DNA of 33,692 nucleotides, taken from positions 1 through 33,692 of IMG/VR virus record IMGVR_UViG_3300005913_000035; one strand, given 5' to 3'. Origin of the DNA: a virus. A model generated the notes under the pieces. That model worked only from the letters and a program-made list of their open reading frames with translations. It had not been told where the DNA came from and made no database searches. Below are positions 1,709 through 26,817 of this stretch, in pieces; position 1 is the stretch's first letter; the number at the start of each line of letters is the position of its first letter. The position numbers and the translations under genes were made by a program.

Positions 1709-2964
1709 TGTCAAACATAACTAACCTACCTTTAATTGATTGATTCGAAACCACACTATCACAAGAGTGGGATGGATCAACTGGTACTATCAATGTTAAC
1801 GAGACTCCTTGATTCACGTTCCCAGCATGAGTTAAGACTTCAATCGTTGTTAATGCTGATAACAGTAAGATCCAGTTAGCAGAGATCAGTGCTTACGATG
1901 CATGAGCTAAAACAATGACAGTATCTAATATAACATTAGAAAAATGAGCTGGAGTTAACTACTCAGCACAAACACACTCAATCGGTTCTAAAGTAAGGAT
2001 TAGTAATAACTACGAGTTCTGGAAGGCTGTTACAACGGCTATATCATCTAAGCTAGATTCAGATGCCGATCGGACATGGAGTGCTGGTGTAGACTACGCA
2101 GGTATGGCAGGTAAGCCTCTCACAGAAACACAGAGAGATGCACTCACACCAGTAAATGGTATGATCATCTTAAATAGTACAAGCGGAGTACTTAATCAAT
2201 ATATTTCAGGAGCATGGACTAGTTTTGCTACAGGTACAACAGCTAACGCTAGTACTACAGTAGCCGGTAAAGTAGAGCTTGCAACAGATGCACAGATCAC
2301 AGCGGGTACAGCTACAGGAGAGACAGGAGCAGAACTCGTAAGCACACCAGTACAATCTAAGAAGTCTATCTCACTTAAGAACAGTGTATCAACCACATCA
2401 GATACAGATGAGTTTGTAGTCAATCAGAGTGCAGAAGATAAAAGAGTAACACAAGCTATACTAAGAGACCAGCTTGCAGCAAGTACAACAAAGAAAGGTA
2501 CTAGCGAAAGATCAACAGATGCAGAATATTATACAGCTTCTGATGAAGAAAGATACATAACACCTTACCTGTGAGCTTACGAACTATTTGCAGCAGATAC
2601 ATTAACTCTGGCCTCTGCTCCAACAACAAGAAACACAACATCAACAACGTATGTTGTTCAAAAGGAGTTTACAGCAGACAGAAGCTGAACACTAAGAATA
2701 AGTTATAACTTTGGGATGAACTGAGGTTGATGAGGTAACGCTGCTTACTCTAGGGTATTTATTGATTGAGTTGCTGCAGGAACAGAACACATTAAGTCAG
2801 AGGATGGTTCTGTAAGTGTTGTAGAAGACCTAGCCGTAGTAAGATGAGACTCTATTGAGATAAAAGTAAAGTCAATCGTATGAACAAATAACGCTTACAT
2901 AAGTTCAGCACTTGTTAGGTGTTGAATGGCCCCAGTAAACGCAGCAACACTAGTAACTGATTAA
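1708..2964 (+). CDS. Tail-fibre-like structural protein
   Basis: This is a 418-residue protein starting at the ATG inside a TAATG overlap with the preceding gene. The middle (about residues 170-215) carries the tail-fibre signature VAGKVELATDAQITAGTATG, a low-complexity Thr/Ala/Ser-rich repeat common in phage fibres and baseplate-attached proteins. The C-terminal part (from about residue 290) is beta-rich and Gly-rich, with many glycines written TGA, and resembles a small trimerising or receptor-binding tip. No enzyme motif is visible. It sits between the nozzle-like gene and the lysozyme-domain virion protein, so a role as a tail or head-fibre component is likely. The fibre class comes from the repeat; the exact position on the virion is inference. 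Confidence 0.65.
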
Positions 2965-2981
2965 TTATATAACCCTTAAAT

Positions 2982-5468
2982 ATGGCAATTCGCAAAAAAT
3001 TCGATCTATCTAAACTATGAGGACTTGACGTTGCTAACACTACTGCACAGGCAGATAGATGACTAGTTGCACCAAAGCTTGCTCCTGTACCTAATAATGT
3101 ACAGTCTGACAAACAATCAAGTCAGAACATGTTCGCAAATAAGTTTGCTAATCAATGAGTTCAGCCAGAACCTGTTGTTAATACACCAGCAGCTGCTGTT
3201 AATACACCAGCACCTAGTCCGTCTGTTCAATGAGCTAGTGGTTTCACTAAGCAACCAGATGTTGTGATCCAAGATCCAAACAAAAGAGAATTTTGAAAGG
3301 TTGACTACTCTACTATAGATGCTATGGATATATCTTGAGTAAAAAGATATGTAAACGAGGTTAGGGCTAGAGCTAGTCAGGGTCAAGAAGTTACCTATGA
3401 GGAACAAGTATTACTTGGTGAAGCAAATAATAGAATACAAGCAGACATACAAGCTCAACAAGTTGCTGATCCCTATGAACCACGCATAGCAGCAGAAGAA
3501 AAGGCTAGAGATATTGAGTCGGCACGTCTACAAGCACAATCTAACACACTAATCAATAGTGAGGAAGCTAGAATCAATGCAATATATCAACAGAGAACAA
3601 CACAAGCAGAAGAACAGTGAGCAAGGGCAGCTCAGTCAGCAGCAAGAAGTATGTCGTTTAGTGGATTAGGTAGATCTACATTTAACGCTGATCAGCAAGT
3701 TAGAATTCAAGAACAGACCAATCAGAACATGGCTATCCTACAAGAGGAGAAGTTCTTAGCTGTTGAGTTATACAGGGCTAAGTTAGCATGAGCAGATAGC
3801 AAGGCATTAGAATCATATCAGACAAGAATTAATACATTAAGAGATGATTCTGCTAAGTTTATGGCAGATCAAGCAGTTGACATCAATAGTTTCAACCAAC
3901 AGAACAACGCATCATATGAAGAAAAGATCAACAACATTATGGCTTATGCTCAGACTTATGTAGATCCTAACAACCCATTATCAGAAGCAGAGATGGCAGA
4001 AGCTGGATCATACGCTGAGTTACTAATAGACTCAGATGGTTGAATCAACAACGAGATACTTAAATCTATAGATCCTAGACTTATGGGAGAAGCTATAAAA
4101 TTAGCAGCAGAGATCAAGTGAGCTATACCAGAGCAAGGTAATTACCAGTTTATTAATTCAGGTAATGGATTAGTAGCAGTAGCTGATGAGAACACTTGAG
4201 AGATTAGATATGAGCAGGGTAATGTACAGACAACAAGAGAAGAGGATTTAAGTAATGAGAACCAAGATCTTGTTAATCAAGGATTAAGAAACGAACTATG
4301 ATTATGAGAGGATACTGGAGATCTAACAGACGACCAATACTACAAGGCAATAGTATCTGGTAAGCTTAACTGAAAGAAGTTCTTCGGACTATATGCTACA
4401 GCTGATCCAGACTGAACACAGTTTATAAGTATATACAACACAGCTAAGAACGATTGATTAGAGTGATTTATCTCTAAGTACAAAGGCACAAGCATTACTG
4501 CTGACATGGTAACACAGGCTGGTAATCAGTTTGGAGTAGATCCATTAGCACTTGCTGCTAAGATGGCACAAGATAGCTCAATGGGTACTAAGTGAAAGGG
4601 AGCTAGAAATAACAACCCTTGAAACGTATGACAGTTTGATAGTCTTGATGCACAAGGTATCACAGTAGAATGATACAAGACACTACAAGAATGAGTAGAC
4701 GCAGTAGCTTCTAACTTTGCAAGCAGAGCAAAGGCTATGAAACCATTAATACCAAATAAAGAGTCATGATCAGAAAAAGAAACATATCTTAATCTTGTAA
4801 AAAGATGATGATTAACTAAATCAGATCAAATGGAGATAGCTGATCTAGCCATTGATTGATGATGGAGTACTGAGTTTAATGAGGCTCTAAAGCAATGATT
4901 TAATGTAGAGCTATCCCCAACACAACAAACACAATATAACAAGGAGTTAGATAGATTCCAATGAAATGCGGTTGTTAAGTGATTCGAGGGATGACTGACA
5001 AGCTTCCAGTCTCTATGATTTGCATTAAGTGAGGGTTCATGACCATGAGATATGGCAGGTATATTTACCTTTATGAAAACACTTGATCCTACTTCCGTAG
5101 TAAGAGAAGCTGAGTATGAAGCAGCAGCAAAAAGTGCTTGAGTATGAGCTAGACTATCCAATACTTTTGATAGACTAACAAAAGGTAAATCATTAACTGA
5201 AAATCAAGCAGAAGACTTTAAAAAGATTGCTCAGGTGTATATAGAACAAAAGGCACAAAGCTATGACAGATTATATACTGACATGACAAGTAGATACTCA
5301 AAGTTTGGTATAGATCCTAGTCTAGCACCATTAAGTGCTACAGAGCAACTAAGAAACTACCTTGGCTGAACTAAAACAAATGCAGCAAACAGCGTAGCTA
5401 ATCCTAACGCAGTAACATGAGAACAGGCAACACAACAAGAGAATGATTTAATTAACTCATTATTCTAG
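2982..5468 (+). CDS. Internal virion protein with lysozyme/transglycosylase-like domain
   Basis: This 828-residue protein ends in TAG. The N-terminal half is alanine/glutamine-rich and probably coiled coil (about residues 120-330), preceded by a proline/alanine linker. A lysozyme-superfamily-like stretch starts near residue 505: the segment FGVDPLALAAKMAQDSS is followed by a NNNPGN motif, as in phage peptidoglycan-degrading ejection proteins. The usual catalytic Glu of the ES(S/G) motif appears as Asp at residue 531, so activity is uncertain. The C-terminal third is helical without motifs. Position beside the large ART-domain protein and upstream of terminase fits podoviral internal or ejection proteins that open the cell wall during DNA entry. 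The lysozyme assignment rests on motif reading only. Confidence 0.65.
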
Positions 5469-5470
5469 TA

Positions 5471-8425
5471 ATGGCTCCATACAACCCACTACAATCAATA
5501 AGCATGTGAAGGATCAACAGTGAATCCCTTAGATCTAATAACCCAGATAAGGTTCAAGATCAGAAAAGAAGAGATGCACAGAGATCTATGTCCGATAGAA
5601 TCACAACAGGTATTACTAACACTGGATCCATTAAGTCTCCAGTGTCTTCCCCTGTTAGATCTAACGTGCAAGATGTTATGACTCCTGCTACAATTAGAGA
5701 CCCTAGATCACCTAGACCATCTAACATGCCATTGATTGCTGGTAATGTATGAGTACAGCCACAAAAGTCAAACCTAATAACAAAAGATAAACTAAGGACG
5801 GTATTAGAGCAAGTAGATCCAAGTAGAAGACATATAGTACTTAGAGGTATAGTAGCTAAATGATGAGTTATTGAGTGATATAATGATCCACAATCTCAGA
5901 TAACCCAATCACCACAAAGAGCAGAGCCACAGTTCCCACTAGGTACAGCACCTAAGCAACAATGATTAAAATGATCTTTGGTTTCATGAGAGGAGCAGTA
6001 TTCAGTCAATCCATCATTTAAGTTTGACTCAGTAAAAGACCAATGACCTAATGCACTTAAGCTTATATGAAACGTACCATCTAGTGCTGCAAATGTTTGA
6101 GCTAACTTGCTACAGCTAGCAAACCCAAGCAACCGATGAAATATCATTAAAGGAGCTGGTAGTGTAATAGCATGAGCTGCAGTAAATATTGCTAAGTGAG
6201 CGTGAAAACTGGTAAATAGCATGAGCGAAGAAGAATATAATAGAGAGATATGACGTGTTGTTGGCTCTAAGTCTTCTTTCTTACAAAAGATAAACAACTC
6301 TGAAGCTGTTGCAGACCAGATGGGTGAAGTCCTTGCAAAGAGAGCTGGTTTCTCTAATTGAGAGTTTGATAGTCAGTTGTTAGCTAAGACAATTACAGAA
6401 GATCCTGTATGAGTTATATCAGACATAGCCTTTATATTAGAGTGAGGATGACTTGCTTGAGCGAAAGCACTATGATGATTAGCTTCTAAATGATCTAATC
6501 TAGCAAAGGCTTGAGACAGGCTATGAGACTTATGAAAACTAGCTTGATCTATAGATCCATACTCAATAATCCCAAAAGTAGCAGTATGAGCAGCGAAGGC
6601 AGCAAGCAAGTGAGCTCTTAAAGTATGATCTGCTATCTGAGAGGCAGGAGTTTGATTATTAGGCAAAGCAACAGGTACATCAGCAGATACAATCAAGGAA
6701 GTATATAGAACAGCTTGAAGCAAGTGAACAGTGGACGCATTAAGGTGAAGAACCAACGATACTTCTATACTAGAGGCAGTAAAATCATGAGTAGAAGATC
6801 TAAGAGAGCAAAGATCTATCTTGTACTGAAAGGATTTTGATATTCTTAAGAACAACACTAGTAAAATAAATATATCTCCAGTTAAGAAGGCGATCGTAAC
6901 AGAACTAACAGACTGACTCAATGTTAAGATAGTAGACTGAGAATTAGATTTCAGTAAGTCAAAGATTACATCTACAGCATCTCAAAAAGAGATAGTAAAT
7001 ATGTATGATGATATTACTAAACGAGATGACCTTAGTCCTCAATGATTAGATATACTAAAACAAAGAGTCTCAGATTACTGGAGAGGTACAGCAGAGGCTT
7101 CAAAAGCGGATAGAGTGTCAACAATGTTGTCAAAGCAGATTAAGTCACTAATCATCAATAAAGTACCAGAGTACGCAAGGATGACAGCTAAGTATGAAGA
7201 GATGAGTATATTGATCAGAGATATACAGTGAGCGTTAGGCTTATGAAATAAAAAAGCAACTACAACTGCGATAACAAAGCTTAAATGAGCGTTAAGACAG
7301 AACCAAGAGTTTAGACAGGCTATGATTAGGGAGATAGAGAAGTATGGTTGAGATAACATTATGTGACAGATCGCATGATCTCAGATGAACGAGTTATTAC
7401 CAAGATGACTTGCTTGAGTATGAGCATGAATCCTATGAATAGGTATATGATCACTAATAAATCCTCAATTCTTATTCTGACTGGCTGCATCAAGTCCAAG
7501 AATAATAGGAGAGATTGCGAACGCTCTAGGCGTAGCTACTAAAGAACTACAATCATATATGGATAATGTAAAGTGATTCTACAAGAGACCTAAGGTTGTT
7601 AACAGCGTACCATCTTGAGTTAGACAAGCACTACCTGAAGATACAAAAACAAACATAGGTTCAATTAAAAGCCCAATAGTAACACCGCAGACTAGGTCAG
7701 TGAATAATATTATAGAGAGATGAACAGCAAAAAAGCCATGAACAAGTAGAACAAACCCTATAGACAATATTAATAAGAAAGAAAAGGCGTTGAAATCCCT
7801 TAAATCAGAGGCTAAAAGTACTGTAAGAGATGTTATTAAGTCTAAGGGTACAATTGTGCCTAAATCACCTGAAATTACTAAACTATCTACAGAAGCTAAG
7901 AAGTATAAAACTGCTGATGAGTTTGTGAATAGCTTAGAAAATAACTGAGATATAATATACCATGGGACTAATAAAAAGTTTGACACACTTGATGTTTGAA
8001 AAAGTAAAATATGAGACGCTATATTCTTCTCTACTAAGAGATGATTTGCTGGTAAATATGCTTGAGACAAATGAAGAGTCATAAAATGATATTTAGATAA
8101 AAATTCAAAAGTAATAGACTTTACAAATAAGTGAGAAATGGATAAATTTAAGAATGAAATCTCAAAGAATTACCCATGACTAGTATATGTGATAGAAAAT
8201 AAACTACAACCTGCTCTTGATTCTTGAAACCGATGATTTATTGAGCTTGAAGTGTTCTGAATAAAGAAAGAATTAAAGAAGCTATGATATGATTGATATA
8301 TAGTAAGAGAAAGTTGATTACCATGATTTGAGGAAAATACAAAAAATATAGCACTCTTTAACACTGATGTTATTAAGACAGAAGCTCAACTACGTAAGAT
8401 CCGAGAAGAAGCAAACAACAAATAA
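5471..8425 (+). CDS. Large internal virion protein with C-terminal ADP-ribosyltransferase-like domain
   Basis: This 984-residue protein starts two bases after the previous TAG. The central part (about 200-680) is helical, with Gly/Ala-rich hydrophobic stretches near residues 645-690 (GLAGVGAGILGIGIG and onward) that could insert into a membrane. The last 150 residues match the ART layout of phage PolyVal-type polyproteins. H831 lies in IIYHGTNKKF, followed by a DAIFFSTKRGFAGKYAG block, then KKLGYDGYIVRE, and a closing block (IALFNTDVIKTEAQL) where this family typically has its VvF...ikSa ending. I infer that the protein is packaged and ejected, with the ART domain acting on a host target after entry. 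Glycine is very often TGA here, unlike in the capsid gene. An alternative is a structural protein with a degenerate ART fold. Confidence 0.7.
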
Positions 8426-8453: not shown

Positions 8454-9989
8454 ATGACTTTAAAAGAACAAGCATTAAAAGAATTGGCTACAAGAAGACT
8501 TGAGGAGATACACGCACCACAAAGGGATTCTCTTCTTGACTTCATACAATTGTATTTCAAGAATGAGAAGCCAAAGGGAATAACTAATTTCCATATATCA
8601 CCCTTCCATAAAGTGATAGCTGATAGGTTAGAGAAAGTAATCAAGTGAGAGATTACAAGGCTGATTATAAACATACCTCCGTGACACTGAAAGACAGAGC
8701 TAATCACTAAGAGCTTCCCAGTGCATGCAATGGGTAATAATCCTTACCTACAGGTAATAGCGACAGGATACTCTACAACTCTTACTCAGGGATTCTCAAG
8801 TGAAGCAAAGGACTACTACAAGTCAGATACATTTAAGTCTGTATTCCCTAGAAGTAATTGAATCAATAGATCGCAAGATACTAAGGAGCACTGGAAGACA
8901 GCTGAGTGATGATCGTATTACGCAACATGATTTGACTGATCTATCACTGGTAAAAGATCTAATATATTTATTATCGATGATCCTATTAAGCCAAAAGAAG
9001 CAGACAGGTCTGACGTTGTTAGAGATTGAGTAAATAACTTATTCTTAACTACTGTACCTAGTAGACTATTTAACCCAGAAAAGGATGCGATTATTATTAT
9101 AATGCAGAGAACGCACGATAATGATCTATGTGGATACCTAATAGATAGGATGAACACTGGTTGATCTGAGTACGAAGTAATAAGTATGCCAGCAATAGCT
9201 GATCATGATGAAGTATGGGAGACTGAGAAATATTGAACCATCACTAGAGCAAAGGGAGAAGCACTGGACGAGAATAGATTTCCATTATCTACACTAGATA
9301 TATTGAAGAGCGATATGATGAACTGAGACTGATGAATGTCTGCACGGTCTACCCAGTATCAACAAGAGCCGATCAACAAAGAGACACAAGAGTTCCATGA
9401 GGAATGGTTTAAGTATCATGGAGAGTGAACAGAGAACAAGACACCAACATCACTAAGGATATTTACATCAGTAGATCCTGCCTTCAAAAAGTGACAACAT
9501 AACGATCAGACAAGTATTATGACTGTTTGACTTTCATCAGACCAAGTATATATATTAGAATATACGGCAGGCAAGTATTCAGCTGTTGAATTACAAGACA
9601 AGATTATCTACCATGTACAGAAGTGGAATCCAGAGAAAGTAGGTATTGAGGCTTTTCAAGCACAAACTATGATCGCACAACATCTTAGACTAGAACTGCA
9701 GAGAAGAAACATCTATGCAAGTATAGAAGAGATAAAACAAACTGGTGACAAACTGACCAAGATTAGAAAGCTAATAGCACCGTACAGAAGAGGACAGGTA
9801 TATCATAAGCACTGAATGGATTGACTAGAGACAGAACTCAAGAGATTTCCAAGAGGTAAACATGACGATATTATTGACTCACTGCAAATGGTATATGATA
9901 TGATATACTTAACACCGTGAACGAAGGTTAAAGTAGAATATAAGTTTGAATTCGATAGTAATGGTATCCCCTACACAATATGAAGCTAA
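8454..9989 (+). CDS. terL: Terminase large subunit (ATPase-nuclease)
   Basis: This 511-residue protein is the DNA-packaging motor. Walker A is PGHGKTE at residues 76-82, and both of its glycines are encoded by TGA. The Walker B acidic pair lies in FIIDDP (D175, D176). The RNase H-like nuclease half has SVDPAF (D341) and a C-terminal HDDIID (D471). Length and motif order are normal for TerL. The last residues are encoded TGA AGC TAA, and the portal ATG begins inside this TGA, giving a 10-base overlap. No small terminase subunit is recognisable nearby. It precedes portal, scaffold and capsid in the standard head order. The assignment is secure from the motifs. Confidence 0.95.
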
Positions 9990-11767
9990 ACCAAGATAAA
10001 CAATACGAGATAGCTAAACACGTACAAGAAACGCATGTCGATTATAGCGACAGGCTTTCTTCATGGAGAGAAAGAATGCTTAACATCTTCCAAGAGTATT
10101 CTACTTTTAGAACTCCTAGTAAAGATAGATGGACTCCAGACTTCAAAGTAAATAAAGCACACGAGATTGTAGACAAGGCAGTAGCTAAGGTTATGGCTTG
10201 AGCTCCTACATGGATAGTTGATAACATTAACTATAATATCGAAGACGAGCAGGCACAGAAGGAGGCAGAGGATGCATCTATAGGTATTAGAGAATACTTA
10301 GCAAAGATCTACAGCAAAGAAGACATGATCGAGACAGCTGAGTTAGTAGCTAAATCTATGCTTGTATATGGGTTGTCTATATCTAAGGTATCTTTCAAAT
10401 ACAAAGTAAAGAGAGATAAGACTAAGAGTACCGAGACTGTAGAAACAGAAGAATGATCATACTCAGAAGAAGTTACATCAGTGAGCGAAGGAATATCTGC
10501 TGAGTACCCTTGTATAGATGTTAAGTCATGGTCTGATGTTGTCTTCGACCCTAGATATACAAGACTAGAGGACCTCCCTTGTATCATAGAGACTAATAAA
10601 AACATTAGATTATCTTTCTTCACTAAAGACCGTTCAAGGTTTATGAATGTGGACAAACTAATAGAGTGTTGTATGGCTACAAGCAACAACCAATCAGATG
10701 ATAGATGATATAGATCACAGATTGAGTCTATCTTAGGAATATCATGAGTAGAGAACCCAAGCAAGTTTAGTTCTAGCTCACTAGATATTAAGTGTTACTA
10801 TGGTTACTACGATCTATCATCTGCAGAAGACCAAAGTGGTGAGAAGATGTATGAGTTCTGGGTAGTTAACAACTTAATAGTAGTATATGCAGAAGAGATC
10901 AGCTATATGCCATTCGAGGATGCAAGATGTAGTTATGATACAGAATCATTCTTAGCAGTATGACTAGTAGAACCTATGATTGGTCTACAGAAAGAGATGA
11001 ACTTCCAAAAGACTAGTGCAGCCAAGTATATCAACCAAACCCTTAACAGACAAATGGTGTGGAGTCCACAAAGTGGAGTTAATCCTTCTAAGCTAAATGA
11101 TCCTGTTATAGTAGCACAGAACGGTTGAGCAGCAGCACAAGAAAACTTGTATGAACTGCCACATAGAACACTATCGTCTGACTACTTCGGTAATCTACAA
11201 GACCAAGAGAGACAGATCCAAGCAGTAACATTTACTGTAGACACAGCAAACACAAAGACTACATGAGCGTTAACTAATACAGCAACTGGAGCAAAGATCG
11301 ATTATATGGAGAGTAATCTAGTAATGGACTCATTCAAAAAGCACTTTGAACAGTGGTTCATTAGGTCAGCCTATAAGATACTACAGGTAGCAGCAGATAA
11401 GCTAGAGTGAAATATAAAGATAAAGACGCCAGACGGCAAAGTAATCACAATGACTAAAGAGGTGTTTAGAAATGCAGTAGATAAATACGACATTAGTATT
11501 GAAGTATGATCTACGTCTTGGGATAGTAAACAAAGCAAGAGAGACGATGCAGCAGCACTTACTAATATCGTTGGTACATACATGTGAATGGGTTACGATT
11601 GATTCAATCTTGAGTATCTAGCTAAGCAGAACGTTTGACTATTCGACCAGATAGATCCTAAGAAGATAATCAGACCACAGATGCCACAGATGCCACAGAT
11701 GTGATTGCCACCATGATCACCACCACCAAGACAACAATGAGGACAAATGAATATATGACCAATATAA
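9980..11767 (+). CDS. Portal protein
   Basis: This 595-residue protein is identified as the portal from position (directly after TerL, before scaffold and capsid), length and general composition. The N-terminal half is mixed alpha/beta with many acidic residues. Residues about 330-440 are a helix-rich stretch beginning VGLVEPMIGLQKEMNFQKTS, similar to the stem region of podoviral portals. The C-terminus is a Pro/Met/Gln-rich tail (RPQMPQMPQMG). Its ATG overlaps the terminase end in the form ATGA. The portal forms the dodecameric ring through which DNA enters the head. No diagnostic short motif exists for portals, so the call leans on synteny, which is strong here. Confidence 0.85.
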
Positions 11768-12095: not shown

Positions 12096-12641
12096 ATGGC
12101 AACAACCAATTGAACAACTGACGAAAGTTTGACTCAGGAGGACTGACAAACGCTATACGAAGTAAACGGCGAGCAGTTAACACTTGATGAACTACAGAGC
12201 GGTTACATGAGACAATCAGACTACACTCGTAAAACACAAGAGTTAAAGAAGAGCGAACCGAGAGAAGAAGAAGATGAATCATGGATTGAAACAGTTAAAT
12301 CAAAATGATTTATGACAAATGATGAATTTGAAACTAAGCTAAGTTCTAAATTAGCAGAAAGAGAGTTCGACAACGATGTATTATCTAGTCCAGAACTTAA
12401 GAAACACGAGAAAGCAATAAGAAAACTAGTAGAACAGACCTGAATGTCTCCATACGATGTTATCGATGAATATTGATTTGGTAAATCAGAGAAGTTAAAG
12501 AAAGCAAAAGAATCAAGACTACTCTGAGACAGAGATTACGGAACATGACCTAAGTCTATATGAACTATGTCAGATGACGAGGTCGATGAATATATCAGCA
12601 AGAACTCAAAGATGGACAAATATAGAGTATCAGGGACATAA
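12096..12641 (+). CDS. Capsid scaffolding protein
   Basis: This 181-residue acidic, helical protein lies immediately upstream of the major capsid gene. Residues about 22-50 carry the block typical of phage scaffolds, YEVNGEQLTLDELQSGY followed by MRQSDYTRKTQEL. The rest is Lys/Glu-rich with predicted helices and a basic C-terminal end (KMDKYRVSGT), as expected for the coat-binding helix. It should form the transient core on which the procapsid assembles and then leave or be degraded. Glycines are mostly TGA. The assignment combines the conserved N-terminal block with position; both agree. Confidence 0.85.
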
Positions 12642-12670: not shown

Positions 12671-13894
12671 ATGGCTAATTCAGTACAACCAACTTTCCCA
12701 GAGATCTGGGCAAAGAAAATGCAGATGACTTTTAAAAAGGAGAACCAAGCGGAAGTATTCGCTGACACTTCTTACAATTCATCCCTAAAATCAGGAGACA
12801 CTCTCCACAGACAACTAGGTAATATCGATCCTAACGGTGCTCCAGGAGTACACGTAAGAGGTGCAGATATCGCTGAATCTTTCTACTCAGCTAGCGATGA
12901 GACTATGTCAATTGACAAAGAGTTCTCTACTCGTTACTTTATCGAAGGTTTTGACGAAATTCAATCAGACATTTCACTCGCAGCTTACTACGGTGAACAG
13001 TTCGGAGGACAGATGAAAGTACAAATCGATGCTACTGTATTCGGTGAAACACTAAACTCAGCTTCTATCGTAGATGCAGGAGATCTTGGTGGTACAGGTG
13101 GACAAGGTATCACACTATCTAGTTCTAATGTAATCAACGTTGTTGCAGCAGTAAGAAAGAAATTTAAGAAACTTAATGTTTCTACTGATAACATGAAGGG
13201 TGCAATCTCTCCAGAGTTCGTAGAATTCTTGACACTATACGGTGCAGGTAGAGATACAACAATGGGTGACGATGTAAACCGCAGAGGGTTCTTCGGTAAG
13301 TTCAATGGTATTAGTCTTTATGAGACCAACAATACTACTGGAACTGCTGTACTCGCTATGGCTACACAACCTACTAACGGTGATCCAATCACTCTAGCAG
13401 GACAAACATTTACTGCAGTATCTACTATCGGTACAACTGCTGGTAACTACAAGATCGGAGCTAACGTTGATGTTACAAGAGCTACTCTTACAGCATTGAT
13501 TAATAATCCAGCTACAACTAGCACAACTCAGGTTGCACTAGGTACATCTACATCTGAAGTTGTTAAATTATTTGCAGCTAGAATTTCAGCGGTAAATGAC
13601 GACTCAGCAAACACAATGACAGTTACACACAAGGGTGCTGGTACTATCGTAGTATCTGAAACACTAACTGATGGAACTGACACATGGACAGCTACAGCTC
13701 AGAAACAACACTGCCTATTCGTAGCAGGAAGTGGACCAGCTCTAGTCGTACAACAGACACCAAAAGTAAACGTCGTAGAATCTGAAGCTAGAAATGGCTC
13801 ATTTACTAAGATGGCTTGTTTATTTGGAGTGAAAACATTCTCTGATCAGGCAAAAATGATGACTGACGTACAACTTAACTCTAGTACTTACTAG
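12671..13894 (+). CDS. Major capsid protein
   Basis: This 407-residue protein, directly after the scaffold gene, is followed by a strong intrinsic terminator, as expected for a highly expressed coat gene. Residues 1-230 and 345-407 read as an HK97-fold coat protein (for example the SIDKEFSTRYFIEGFDE block near residue 78). Residues about 233-345 look like an inserted beta-rich domain of a kind common in phage structural proteins (DPITLAGQTFTAV ... GTIVVSETLTDG). All 37 glycine codons are GGN and none is TGA, in sharp contrast to its neighbours. It ends in TAG. The assignment as coat protein is based on synteny, size and composition. Confidence 0.9.
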   Translation: MANSVQPTFPEIWAKKMQMTFKKENQAEVFADTSYNSSLKSGDTLHRQLGNIDPNGAPGVHVRGADIAESFYSASDETMSIDKEFSTRYFIEGFDEIQSDISLAAYYGEQFGGQMKVQIDATVFGETLNSASIVDAGDLGGTGGQGITLSSSNVINVVAAVRKKFKKLNVSTDNMKGAISPEFVEFLTLYGAGRDTTMGDDVNRRGFFGKFNGISLYETNNTTGTAVLAMATQPTNGDPITLAGQTFTAVSTIGTTAGNYKIGANVDVTRATLTALINNPATTSTTQVALGTSTSEVVKLFAARISAVNDDSANTMTVTHKGAGTIVVSETLTDGTDTWTATAQKQHCLFVAGSGPALVVQQTPKVNVVESEARNGSFTKMACLFGVKTFSDQAKMMTDVQLNSSTY

Positions 13895-14334: not shown

Positions 14335-16764
14335 ATGCCTAAGATGACCTCTGCGGAGTATATAAAAGAACTTGCGAGTTCTCCATTAACAAGGGAACAA
14401 CTAAACAAGCTATTGGATAGAAACAATATTAGCTATGAGTTGTGAGAACTTGACAATTTCTGATACGCTGTTCTTAATTGATTTAAGGGCAAAAGATCAG
14501 ATTTTTCTGCACAAAGAGAATGAGAGTACATGACTTGACTATCTAAATGATTGAGTCAGAAAGTTAAAGATATTGATAAGAAGATTGTAAGCTTCGAATC
14601 TACTAAGAAAGAGTTGGAGAAGATGCCTTGAAAGGTGCTTGCAACCGTTGACGCTGACCTTAAGAGCGTCAGAGAAGATCAAAAGGTATATAACGCCAAG
14701 ACATTACAAAACCTTGCTAAAAAGGCAGAGAAAAAACACGGTCATGATATGTCAGAAATCAAAGGTATAGACAAACAGTTTTCCAACCTAGAAACTAAGA
14801 TTAGTGATCGTCCAACAAGAGATGAAGTGTCCGACGCTATGAAAAAGAACTTTGTTACTAAAGATAATACTTTCACAAAAGAAGAAACTAGAAGTTATGT
14901 TAAAAGCAAACTTAATAAGATAGTTATACCATGAAAGTCATGAGGATCTGGTTGAGGAGGGACATGAGATGTAACAGCTGCAGCAGTCTTAGTGGATAAC
15001 TCTATTATTAGAGGTGATGGTGGTGCTAAGTGAGTACAAGGCAGTGGTGCAACTATAGACGACTCATGAAACATAACATCGAATAATATCAATCAAACAG
15101 TTGTTATTGGAGCAAGTCCAGTGTTTACTCTTGCGAATCAAACTATTGACGATAGTGAACTTATTGTTGCAGATACTACTAATGCACAGACTTTCGTTAA
15201 TAAGGTAGACCATGCCATATTGAAATCTAAGGGAACAGGAGTAAATACTACTTACGTTGCAACTGCAGCAGTAGGAGGAACAACCTTTGATATTCCAGAC
15301 GTTTTTACAGAAATTTATAGTGATGAAGGATATTTTTATATTCATTATTTAGGGTCAACTGGAACAACAGTAGCTAATTTAAATGCTGCATCTACATTTG
15401 TTTTTTTAGATAAGACAGGGGCTTTAGATCAACAAACAACAACACCTACAAGACAAGATTTAACTAGAAAAGTTTTTCTAATTAGAATTGCGGTAAATAC
15501 AGCAAATAATACTATTTTAGGTTTTGAATATTTAAACAACCCTACAGGTAACTATACTAATACTATCAGGGATTTATATTCATATCTTTTAGCTCAAGGA
15601 GTACCATTTAAAAAAGATTTAGTTGTTACGGGTAGAGCGGGAGATTTAGGGTTTGATATTTCGTCAGGAAGTTTAATGGAACTTGGGGGTACAGGAGATA
15701 TTTTTAATCCAAACATTAAAGATTTTGACGCTGTAGCTAATGCAGAATTTGCCTTAGTTCAAAGTGCTTCAGAAAATTCTACTGGAAATACAAACCTCCC
15801 AAAGTTTTGGGACAATTCAGGATCACTTACAGCTCTTGGTTCTACTACTTTAGTGGGTCATAGACTGTATAGATTTAGTAGTGGTAATCTTACAATTCAA
15901 TACGGTCAGGGCAATTATGCTAATATGGTTCTTGCTAAGGCAGGCGTACTAACAGAGGATTACGATCTAAACCCTGGGCTTGTAGACGCTACCTTCTTAG
16001 GTCGGTGGTTTATCGAATCTACAGCCACTAATACATCAGGGACAGTAAAGACAGCATTTGTTGAATACACTATTGGAGTACAGGGCGGAGTATCAAATTC
16101 CTTATCAGGTGCATTACTTAAGGGTAATAACTTGTCAGACTTACTAGATGTAAGTGCAGCTAAGACTAACTTGTCTTTAGATAATGTGGATAACACAAGT
16201 GATGCTAATAAGCCTGTAAGTACAGCAGGTCAAACAGCTCTTAATCTAAAAGCTAATATTGCATCACCTACGTTCACATGAACAGTGTCAGGCATTACAA
16301 AAGCTATGGTCTGACTTACTAGTGTTGATGATACAAGTGATTCAACTAAAAACGCAGCAAGTGTAACGCTAACAAACAAGACAATCTCTTGAGCTAGCAA
16401 CACAATCACAGTGGATGGTGTTAATGAAGTGGGATTTAGAATAATCCCTCAAAAGGTAAAAGCTGAAGACTATACATTAATATTAGAGGATAGTGCGACA
16501 TCTATTCATCACCCTAGTATAGACACAAGTGCAAGAACATATACAGTTCCAGCTAACGCAAGTGTAGCATATCCGATTGGTACTGCTCTTACTTTTACCA
16601 ACGATACAAGTGGTTGAGTAATCACTATCGCAATCACAAGTGATGTTATGATATTGGGCTGAGTAGGCACAACATGAAGTAGAACACTGGCAGCAAGTAG
16701 CATGGCAACATGCATAAAGATGACAGCAACAAGACGGATTATAAGCTGACCTTGACTTACTTAA
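14335..16764 (+). CDS. Long tail fibre protein
   Basis: This 809-residue protein has an N-terminal helical attachment region, a probable coiled coil (about 75-205), and a Gly-rich hinge near 203-212 written largely with TGA. A beta-rich body follows, then a classical fibre repeat near 620-670 (NLSLDNVDNTSDANKPVST, then SPTFTGTVSGITKAM and LTSVDDTSDSTKNAAS), and a small C-terminal tip. It is expected to bind the host surface. Residues 246-648 (15070-16278) contain 36 glycines but no TGA codon, while both flanks use TGA, and the first half of that block is visibly richer in TTT/TTA. This suggests a module acquired from a standard-code source. The fibre assignment is strong; the receptor is unknown. 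Confidence 0.85.
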
Positions 16765-16778
16765 TTAAATTACTAACT

Positions 16779-17360
16779 ATGGCAGTAATACAACAATTAT
16801 TAGCATCATATTGATGAGTACCAAAGACATACGCTACTTGGAATCCAAGCGATAAAAGTTCTTCTATAAATTTATCTTGATGAAACTTGAACGCTTCTAG
16901 TTCTAACTGATCAACATGGCAGTCTGCTAGAGCTACATTGTGAAAAACTTCATGAAAATGGTATTGGGAAGTAACTGCTTTGTCGATAAACACATCTAAT
17001 GACTTAATCATGGTGTGAGTTGCGACCACTGCAGCGAGCCTTACTAATGCTTATATATGATTATCAAGTAATTGATGGTCTTGGTATAATATATCACAAA
17101 AATTTAACTGATCTAGTTCTGCTTATTGAACCAATCGGACAAGCGGAGATGTTATATGAATAGCTGTAGATATATGAGGCAATAGTATTGAGTTTTATAA
17201 AAACAATATTTCTGCTTGAGTAGCATTTACTAATCTTTCTTGAACCATATATCCAGCTATGTCAATAATAAGAACTGTGGCAAATTTAACTACTAACTTT
17301 GGAGCTACTACAATGACATATACAGCACCATTATGATATAATCAATGATTTTATAATTAA
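16779..17360 (+). CDS. SPRY-domain fibre-associated protein
   Basis: This 193-residue protein is almost entirely one SPRY/concanavalin-like beta-sandwich. It contains KWYWEVTALS, then MVGVATT, SSNGWSWYN, GDVIGIAVDIGGNSIEFYKN and a closing TNFGATTMTYTAP. SPRY domains occur in phage tail-fibre tips and accessory proteins and mediate binding. Eighteen of its 21 glycine codons are TGA, the opposite extreme from the capsid gene. The conserved G-D-x-I-G core supports UGA=Gly. It lies directly after the long fibre and probably forms part of the adsorption apparatus. The domain call is confident; the role is inferred from position. Confidence 0.8.
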
Positions 17361-26459: not shown

Positions 26460-26521
26460 GTTAATTAATACACCCTACCTATTCTACAAACAAGGTGCAT
26501 TAATTAACCCATAAGGGTTAA
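26460..26521. repeat. Two adjacent inverted repeats after the SSB gene
   Basis: GTTAATTAATACACC (26460-26474) pairs with GGTGCATTAATTAAC (26494-26508) with one mismatch around a 19-base loop. TTAACCC/GGGTTAA (26504-26521, ATAA loop) overlaps it and includes the SSB stop codon. The two foldings are mutually exclusive. The second can serve as a terminator or 3' stabiliser for the SSB message. Confidence 0.6.
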
Positions 26522-26817
26522 AATGGCACATCAGTTTCCTCAGCTGCTTCGCTTAATACTTCAAGCTTCCGACCTCCGTTGTTCTGATAATGACGATCAT
26601 TGTACTCAGTAACTTTAGCATTATATATAACAGCTACTTCTGATCCAACTGCTAGGTGTTCTACTAGAGCAACCCTATCATCTCCCATCCAGTCAATCAA
26701 TACACTTTCAGGGTACTTGTCTTTGATCTCTTCTACTACGATAGATACCTTAGGAGTATCCTTTTGACCTACAGTCATTTTAGGTGTTACTACTTTTACA
26801 ATTCCTTGGAAGTTCAT
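26518..26817 (-). CDS. ssb: DUF3127-type single-stranded DNA-binding protein
   Basis: This 99-residue OB-fold protein matches the DUF3127 pattern: MNFQGIVKVVTP, then KVSIVVEEIKDKYPESVLIDW and VGSEVAVIYNAKVTEYNDRHYQN. Its C-terminus is acidic and ends TDVPF, the typical SSB tail that recruits partners. The DUF3127 family is best known from Bacteroidetes. It contains no TGA; its six glycines are all GGN, like the capsid protein and unlike its neighbours. It should coat ssDNA at replication forks and recombination intermediates together with the upstream ERF and YqaJ proteins. The length is typical. Confidence 0.85.
   Translation of the reverse strand: MNFQGIVKVVTPKMTVGQKDTPKVSIVVEEIKDKYPESVLIDWMGDDRVALVEHLAVGSEVAVIYNAKVTEYNDRHYQNNGGRKLEVLSEAAEETDVPF

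Follow-up and report, generated by a model that had tools for sequence, protein, structure and literature searches.

Avoidance of the reassigned glycine codon UGA in the major capsid gene of a code-25 phage and its relatives

The major capsid protein (MCP) gene of a podovirus-like phage that reads TGA as glycine (genetic code 25) contains no TGA codon at all, and each of its 37 glycines is encoded by GGN (GGA 13, GGC 1, GGG 1, GGT 22). The gene lies on a 33.7 kb virus record that was analysed over its full length (the window), in which long reading frames are open only if TGA specifies glycine and 437 of the 805 glycine codons in 46 genes are TGA. Almost all genes of these phages use the reassigned codon freely; the exception is the gene for which translational demand should be highest, and its removal there is about as thorough as that of AUA. 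We propose that the codon bias of the capsid gene is the likely outcome of translational selection, UGA being a slow or supply-limited glycine codon in the same way as AUA.

Codon use in the capsid gene and its surroundings

Gene starts and small genes were called by an automatic longest-frame caller, so that the background contains some spurious frames (Table 1). In-frame TGA is carried by the terminase large subunit (TerL), portal, scaffold, tail-like and replication genes. The assignment of the MCP by its profile match is backed by the gene order terminase-portal-scaffold-MCP, which is common to the relatives. The best viral Foldseek match of the MCP model (pLDDT 61.9) is annotated 'Major capsid protein' (E 1.4e-36), and its top PDB matches include the capsids of Sf6, Che8 and P22 with a TM-score of about 0.25. 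Since these matches are known phage capsids but the scores are low, an HK97 fold is predicted as likely rather than shown. No tRNA gene, and hence no suppressor tRNA, was found in the window, a record that may be incomplete.

Table 1. Positions of the genes and blocks discussed in the text
Feature	Source	Position	Strand	Match or context	TGA among glycine codons
ART-domain (ART-PolyVal) protein	window	5471..8425	+	Pfam PF18760, E 1e-10	74/98
Terminase large subunit (TerL)	window	8454..9989	+	phrog_38, E 1.5e-98	21/36
Portal protein	window	9980..11767	+	phrog_332 / phrog_156	16/31
Head scaffolding protein	window	12096..12641	+	phrog_3927, E 1.3e-08; directly upstream of MCP	8/13
Major capsid protein (MCP), 407 aa	window	12671..13894	+	PHROG 267 major head protein, E 8.4e-20	0/37
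TGA-free, ATA-poor block in tail-fibre-like gene 14335-16764	window	15121..16281	+	overlaps stretch without L002 similarity	
SPRY protein	window	16779..17360	+	Pfam PF00622, E 2.1e-19	18/21
SSB	window	26518..26817	-	phrog_4932, E 3.5e-11	0/6
Tail-region gene, 1186 aa	L026	17849-21406			1/131
HK97-type prophage capsid	L124, in G030	2459-3607			21/29
Capsid-position protein, about 306 aa	L019	7288-8205		no PHROG match	TGA-poor
Capsid-position protein, about 306 aa	L022	7686-8603		no PHROG match	TGA-poor
Capsid-position protein, about 306 aa	L030	9903-10817		no PHROG match	TGA-poor
Capsid-position protein, about 306 aa	L031	14671-15603		no PHROG match	TGA-poor

TGA would be expected 21.1 times among the glycine codons of the MCP gene (binomial P 3.0e-14), and its complete absence compares with 410 of 708 in the rest of the window (P 4.5e-14). 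The recount thus bears out the original prediction that the capsid gene avoids TGA completely, as it does the heavy TGA use noted in the SPRY and ART-domain proteins. TGA triplets number 0, 9 and 20 in the three frames of the gene; only the reading frame is depleted, so that it is codons that are avoided. Avoidance of a DNA motif was ruled out, since the other two frames keep normal TGA. The GC3 of the gene is ordinary (0.26; window median 0.29), and G+C content is therefore not the cause of the depletion. The bias extends to other amino acids, with no ATA among 19 isoleucine codons (0.49 elsewhere in the window) and one TAT among nine tyrosine codons (0.61 elsewhere).

The scaffold gene shows no TGA depletion, though its product is probably abundant too. 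Across the window genes, the TGA share falls with an optimality score computed from non-glycine codons (rho -0.44), but there is no gradient when isoleucine and the MCP are left out (rho -0.04, n=31). The SSB gene had likewise been singled out as TGA-free, and in the window it is (P 0.009, uncorrected for the 46 genes), but the SSB genes of two relatives contain three (L002) and six (L026) TGA codons, so that the window case is probably due to chance. A scan of viral contigs for SSB returned none.

Related phages and other capsid families

Searches of viral contigs gave 31 loci with the TerL query and three with the MCP query. Twenty-two rows have a recognisable MCP, the window (L001) included, of which 18 use code 25 and four (L004, L011, L012, L013) the standard code, with TGA near zero in all genes; L005 is the same contig as L002. 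In 18/18 code-25 rows the MCP has a smaller share of TGA than its contig's other genes, with P<0.05 in 17. For pooled counts, 12 code-25 rows were kept after removal of six near-duplicates (L003, L007, L009, L024) or partial MCPs (L015, L020); among the standard-code phages, the near-duplicate L013 and the distant L004 were omitted. The pooled MCPs have TGA at 32 of 384 glycines compared with 0.51 elsewhere (Mantel-Haenszel OR 0.07; CMH z -16.7), the share being lower in all 12, and the two other frames have normal TGA density. In-frame TGA per 100 codons is 0.67 in the MCPs, 3.48 in TerL, 2.34 in the portal and 3.36 in the scaffold, with little difference in the other frames. In the code-25 TerL genes 193 of 361 conserved glycines are encoded by TGA, as befits code-25 phages.

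TGA is one of several codons that these MCPs avoid. In the 12 pooled relatives ATA is used for 26 of 241 isoleucines compared with 0.55 elsewhere (OR 0.09), and TAT (OR 0.27), GAG (0.38) and TTT (0.43) are also avoided, while GGT (5.6), ATC (4.4), AGA (4.0) and TAC (3.6) are preferred, as are TCT and GCT; the bias towards optimal codons therefore spans several amino acids together and not one codon. In 22/22 rows the MCP has a smaller ATA share than the remainder of the contig, with P<0.05 in 20. The MCPs of the standard-code phages L011 and L012 have no ATA among 38 isoleucine codons and prefer ATC (OR 9.4). Since standard-code relatives have the same bias outside glycine, the capsid gene is codon-optimised whatever the code. 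To judge by these codon counts, TGA is in the code-25 members added to the codons that a codon-optimised MCP avoids. The clade of L011 and L012 sits among code-25 relatives in three trees, and a code or host switch has probably occurred within the phage family to which L011, L012, L013 and L004 belong.

Depletion also occurs, more weakly, in a second, unrelated capsid family. In a prophage-borne family of HK97-type siphoviruses (three genomes) it is clear in two, where TGA encodes 9 of 34 capsid glycines compared with 356 of 416 in the rest (P 4e-13), and 13 of 37 compared with 310 of 411 (P 1e-6). The third, L145, has 15 of 35 compared with 189 of 334, a difference that does not reach significance by itself (P 0.085). 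All three capsid genes have reduced ATA. A further HK97-type prophage capsid, L124 in G030, shows no depletion (Table 1) and is possibly part of a decaying prophage.

Some of the TerL relatives encode proteins of about 306 residues in the capsid position, with TGA at 0/24, 0/25, 5/24 and 3/23 glycines. By gene order they are putative capsid proteins. A profile comparison with hhalign did not link the family to the MCP family, and its fold model has a pLDDT of 36. The member in L019 has no TGA (0/24), but ATA encodes 10 of its 16 isoleucines, so that ATA is not avoided there. A search of viral contigs with a TGA-rich Walker-motif pattern gave chance matches and no new code-25 family.

TGA-poor sequence was also noted in tail regions. 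In the tail-fibre-like gene of the window, the first 200 residues share 80-96% identity with L002, and a TGA-free block further on coincides with a stretch that lacks L002 similarity. The block therefore resembles a swapped module, and from this pattern it is probably a receptor-binding one. In L026, the 1186-residue tail-region gene has a single TGA among 131 glycine codons together with ordinary ATA (45/94), and its codon use suggests that it was recently imported from a standard-code phage.

Translational selection and its rivals

The reading that we consider likely starts from copy number. The number of capsid protein copies needed would far exceed that of every other phage product, and this demand would select the capsid gene for optimal codons. 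In a code-25 host, UGA-glycine would be read by a single dedicated tRNA-Gly(UCA). As the phage supplies no tRNA of its own, UGA would be a slow or supply-limited glycine codon, as AUA would be for isoleucine, and mutations that create TGA or ATA in the capsid gene would be purged. Selection would then act on speed or supply and not on accuracy. Because the bias outside glycine is present in standard-code relatives too, and TGA is not singled out, translational selection is the best reading of the data. The original suggestion that the most abundant products are selected against UGA decoding is accordingly the best-supported reading in its general form, but ATA is avoided equally and the TGA gradient among the other genes vanishes once isoleucine is set aside. 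Points against the explanation are the scaffold gene (8/13), the lack of a TGA gradient outside the MCP, the L124 capsid (21/29), the non-significant result for L145 by itself, the ordinary ATA use of the L019 capsid-position gene, the much higher TGA use of host ribosomal genes than of the MCP, and two host genomes, G020 and G072, in which the ribosomal pattern is reversed.

Codon use was also compared in genomes of the host class. Eight Gracilibacteria-type genomes were recovered through a TGA-bearing motif, and 117 genomes of the class through ribosomal protein L2, of which 24 have TGA in L2; code-25 genomes without TGA in L2 are unrecognisable in this way, so that the sample is biased against finding avoidance. 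Twenty were analysed (G018, G049, G058 and G092 were left out), with ribosomal genes defined by position around L2, without annotation. The TGA share of the ribosomal clusters is below background in 16 of the 20 genomes, significantly so (P<0.001) in seven (G030, G032, G040, G050, G057, G066, G079), and significantly above it in two (G020, G072). The depletion is strongest in G066 (L091), with TGA at 68 of 303 ribosomal glycines compared with 2179 of 3172 and with low ATA and TAT as well, which makes this genome a good model for UGA-glycine optimality. In most host-group genomes, however, the ribosomal genes are far less depleted of TGA than the MCP. Contrasts of non-glycine codons in host ribosomal genes and phage MCPs correlate with rho of 0.07 to 0.69 across these 20 genomes. 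G040, which is a single contig, has one gene each of tRNA-Gly with anticodons UCC, UCA and GCC. In G020 (L083), a small code-25 genome, 260 of 279 glycines of the ribosomal cluster are TGA-encoded, above background. When the first 20 kb of the window were compared at the DNA level with 353 genomes of the host class, no convincing protospacer or prophage emerged, and TerL gave weak matches only, in two of 29 host genomes.

Accuracy could be selected in place of speed. UGA may sometimes be misread, for example as tryptophan, and a shell of hundreds of subunits may be intolerant of wrong residues, leaving GGN only. Peptides that indicate misreading of UGA are reported from a BD1-5 bacterium (PMC4032931), where, in the proteomic data cited, 40 peptides with glycine at UGA stand against single peptides with tryptophan, alanine, lysine and aspartate, so that misreading appears rare (PMC4032931). 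In TerL, TGA is less used at conserved than at variable glycines (0.53 versus 0.66, P 0.0075), as accuracy would have it; in the portal, the scaffold and three other genes there is no such difference at P<0.05. Within the MCPs, conserved glycines (20/209) and variable ones (8/83) use TGA equally seldom, which gives no sign of extra protection at critical sites, and some MCPs have TGA at invariant glycines. Avoidance of ATA and TAT, for which there is no misreading story, is also left unaccounted for. Supply or speed is therefore favoured, with accuracy as a minor and unlikely rival.

A capsid gene recently acquired from a standard-code phage, which had not yet gained TGA, would also be TGA-free. 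The family does include standard-code members (L011, L012, L013, L004), and recent TGA-free imports seem to exist, as with the tail gene of L026. The original prediction had named such an acquisition as the finding that would count against it, and trees and codon swaps point away from it. The MCP tree broadly resembles that of the portal, and in each of the MCP, portal and TerL trees the two standard-code phages group as a single clade, with the window MCP outside it. MCPs with zero or low TGA are scattered all over the tree. Between the window and L002, TGA and GGN are swapped at none of 34 shared glycines in the MCP, compared with 6 of 35 in TerL and 8 of 25 in the portal. In four of the 12 pairs (window-L002, L008-L010, L017-L021, L026-L032), exchanges and GGN-GGN changes number 10:22 in the MCPs and 63:34 in TerL, portal and scaffold together (P 9e-4), so that synonymous changes have accumulated in the MCPs without gains of TGA. 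The import-like gene of L026 moreover keeps its normal ATA, of which the window MCP has none. Together, the trees and codon swaps make a recent import of the MCP from a standard-code phage very unlikely.

It is more improbable still that the MCP is kept free of TGA for translation in a standard-code host, or under an active UGA-recognising release factor. Code-11-compatible phages of these hosts have been reported (PMC10746230), but the portal, terminase, scaffold and tail genes of the window need UGA as a sense codon. As the late TerL, portal and scaffold genes are full of TGA, no virion would be possible where UGA terminates. No release factor RF2 was found above the cut-off in any of the 20 code-25 host genomes, whereas RF1 was found in 19, in 14 of them above its own cut-off, and avoidance of ATA would be unexplained. 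The suggestion that release factor, timing of expression or a standard-code context lies behind the pattern thus finds no footing in either the late virion genes or the hosts. Chance or base composition, which may suffice for a small gene such as SSB (0/6), can safely be set aside for the MCP given P 3e-14 in the window, recurrence in every code-25 row, frame specificity and ordinary GC3.

Comparison with known systems

Capsid genes of this kind offer a natural way to ask if a reassigned stop can ever rank equally with its synonyms. We tentatively suggest, as a reading to which we give somewhat less than even weight, that a reassigned stop stays second class long after reassignment, with UGA-glycine decoding through a single tRNA forming a bottleneck even without a competing release factor, one that capsid genes, as the most demanding genes in the cell, would expose. 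On that reading, the use of TGA in capsid genes would be a gauge of the maturity of the new code in each host lineage. In practical terms, two codons could serve as a diagnostic: a gene poor in both TGA and ATA suggests expression, and one poor in TGA with normal ATA suggests recent import from a standard-code genome. Searches of the open-licence PMC literature turned up no description of code-25 capsid genes that avoid TGA. While phage coat genes are known to be under translational selection, a case in which a reassigned stop codon is the strongest target appears, from these searches, to be undescribed.

The closest precedent for selection of this kind is the report that phage head and tail genes favour host-preferred codons relative to non-structural genes (Lucks et al. 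2008, PMC2266997). The likeness lies in translational selection on phage structural genes. The phages treated there have standard-code hosts, whereas among the common codons avoided here a reassigned stop is the most strongly shunned. The avoidance is moreover clear here in the MCP alone and not in the portal, scaffold or tail genes, unlike the head and tail genes of Lucks et al. In alphaproteobacterial gene transfer agents, the capsid gene g5, which encodes the most abundant particle protein, is described as having among the best tRNA adaptation in its cluster (PMC9765227). No code change is involved there, and tRNA adaptation was computed where codon contrasts are used here.

A reassigned codon is reported to be avoided in Blastocrithidia, where in-frame reassigned codons are rare in genes for cytosolic ribosomal proteins and anticorrelate with abundance, with a similar but weaker trend for AUA (PMC12153298). 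That system is a eukaryote with UAR read as glutamate, UGA as tryptophan and a stop of dual meaning, whereas the present one is a phage with UGA read as glycine and a host group without RF2 above the cut-off.

In stop-recoded phages with late-gene code switching, as summarised in PMC10746230, recoded stops stand in late structural genes and the hosts use the standard code. They resemble the window in having in-frame reassigned stops within phage genes, but they recode the late structural genes, whereas here the codon is absent from the MCP, and the window yielded no suppressor tRNA. A code-switching phage of that type, with late genes gated by a suppressor tRNA, was considered for the window and rejected, as no tRNA was found there (the record may be incomplete) and the MCP excludes TGA. 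By its code, the window is of the same kind as the phages of Gracilibacteria and Absconditabacteria described by Liu et al. (2023, PMC10746230), which have dense in-frame TGA. Those authors suggest that the tRNAs which read TGA may be in better supply (PMC10746230); the capsid genes analysed here point in the opposite direction.
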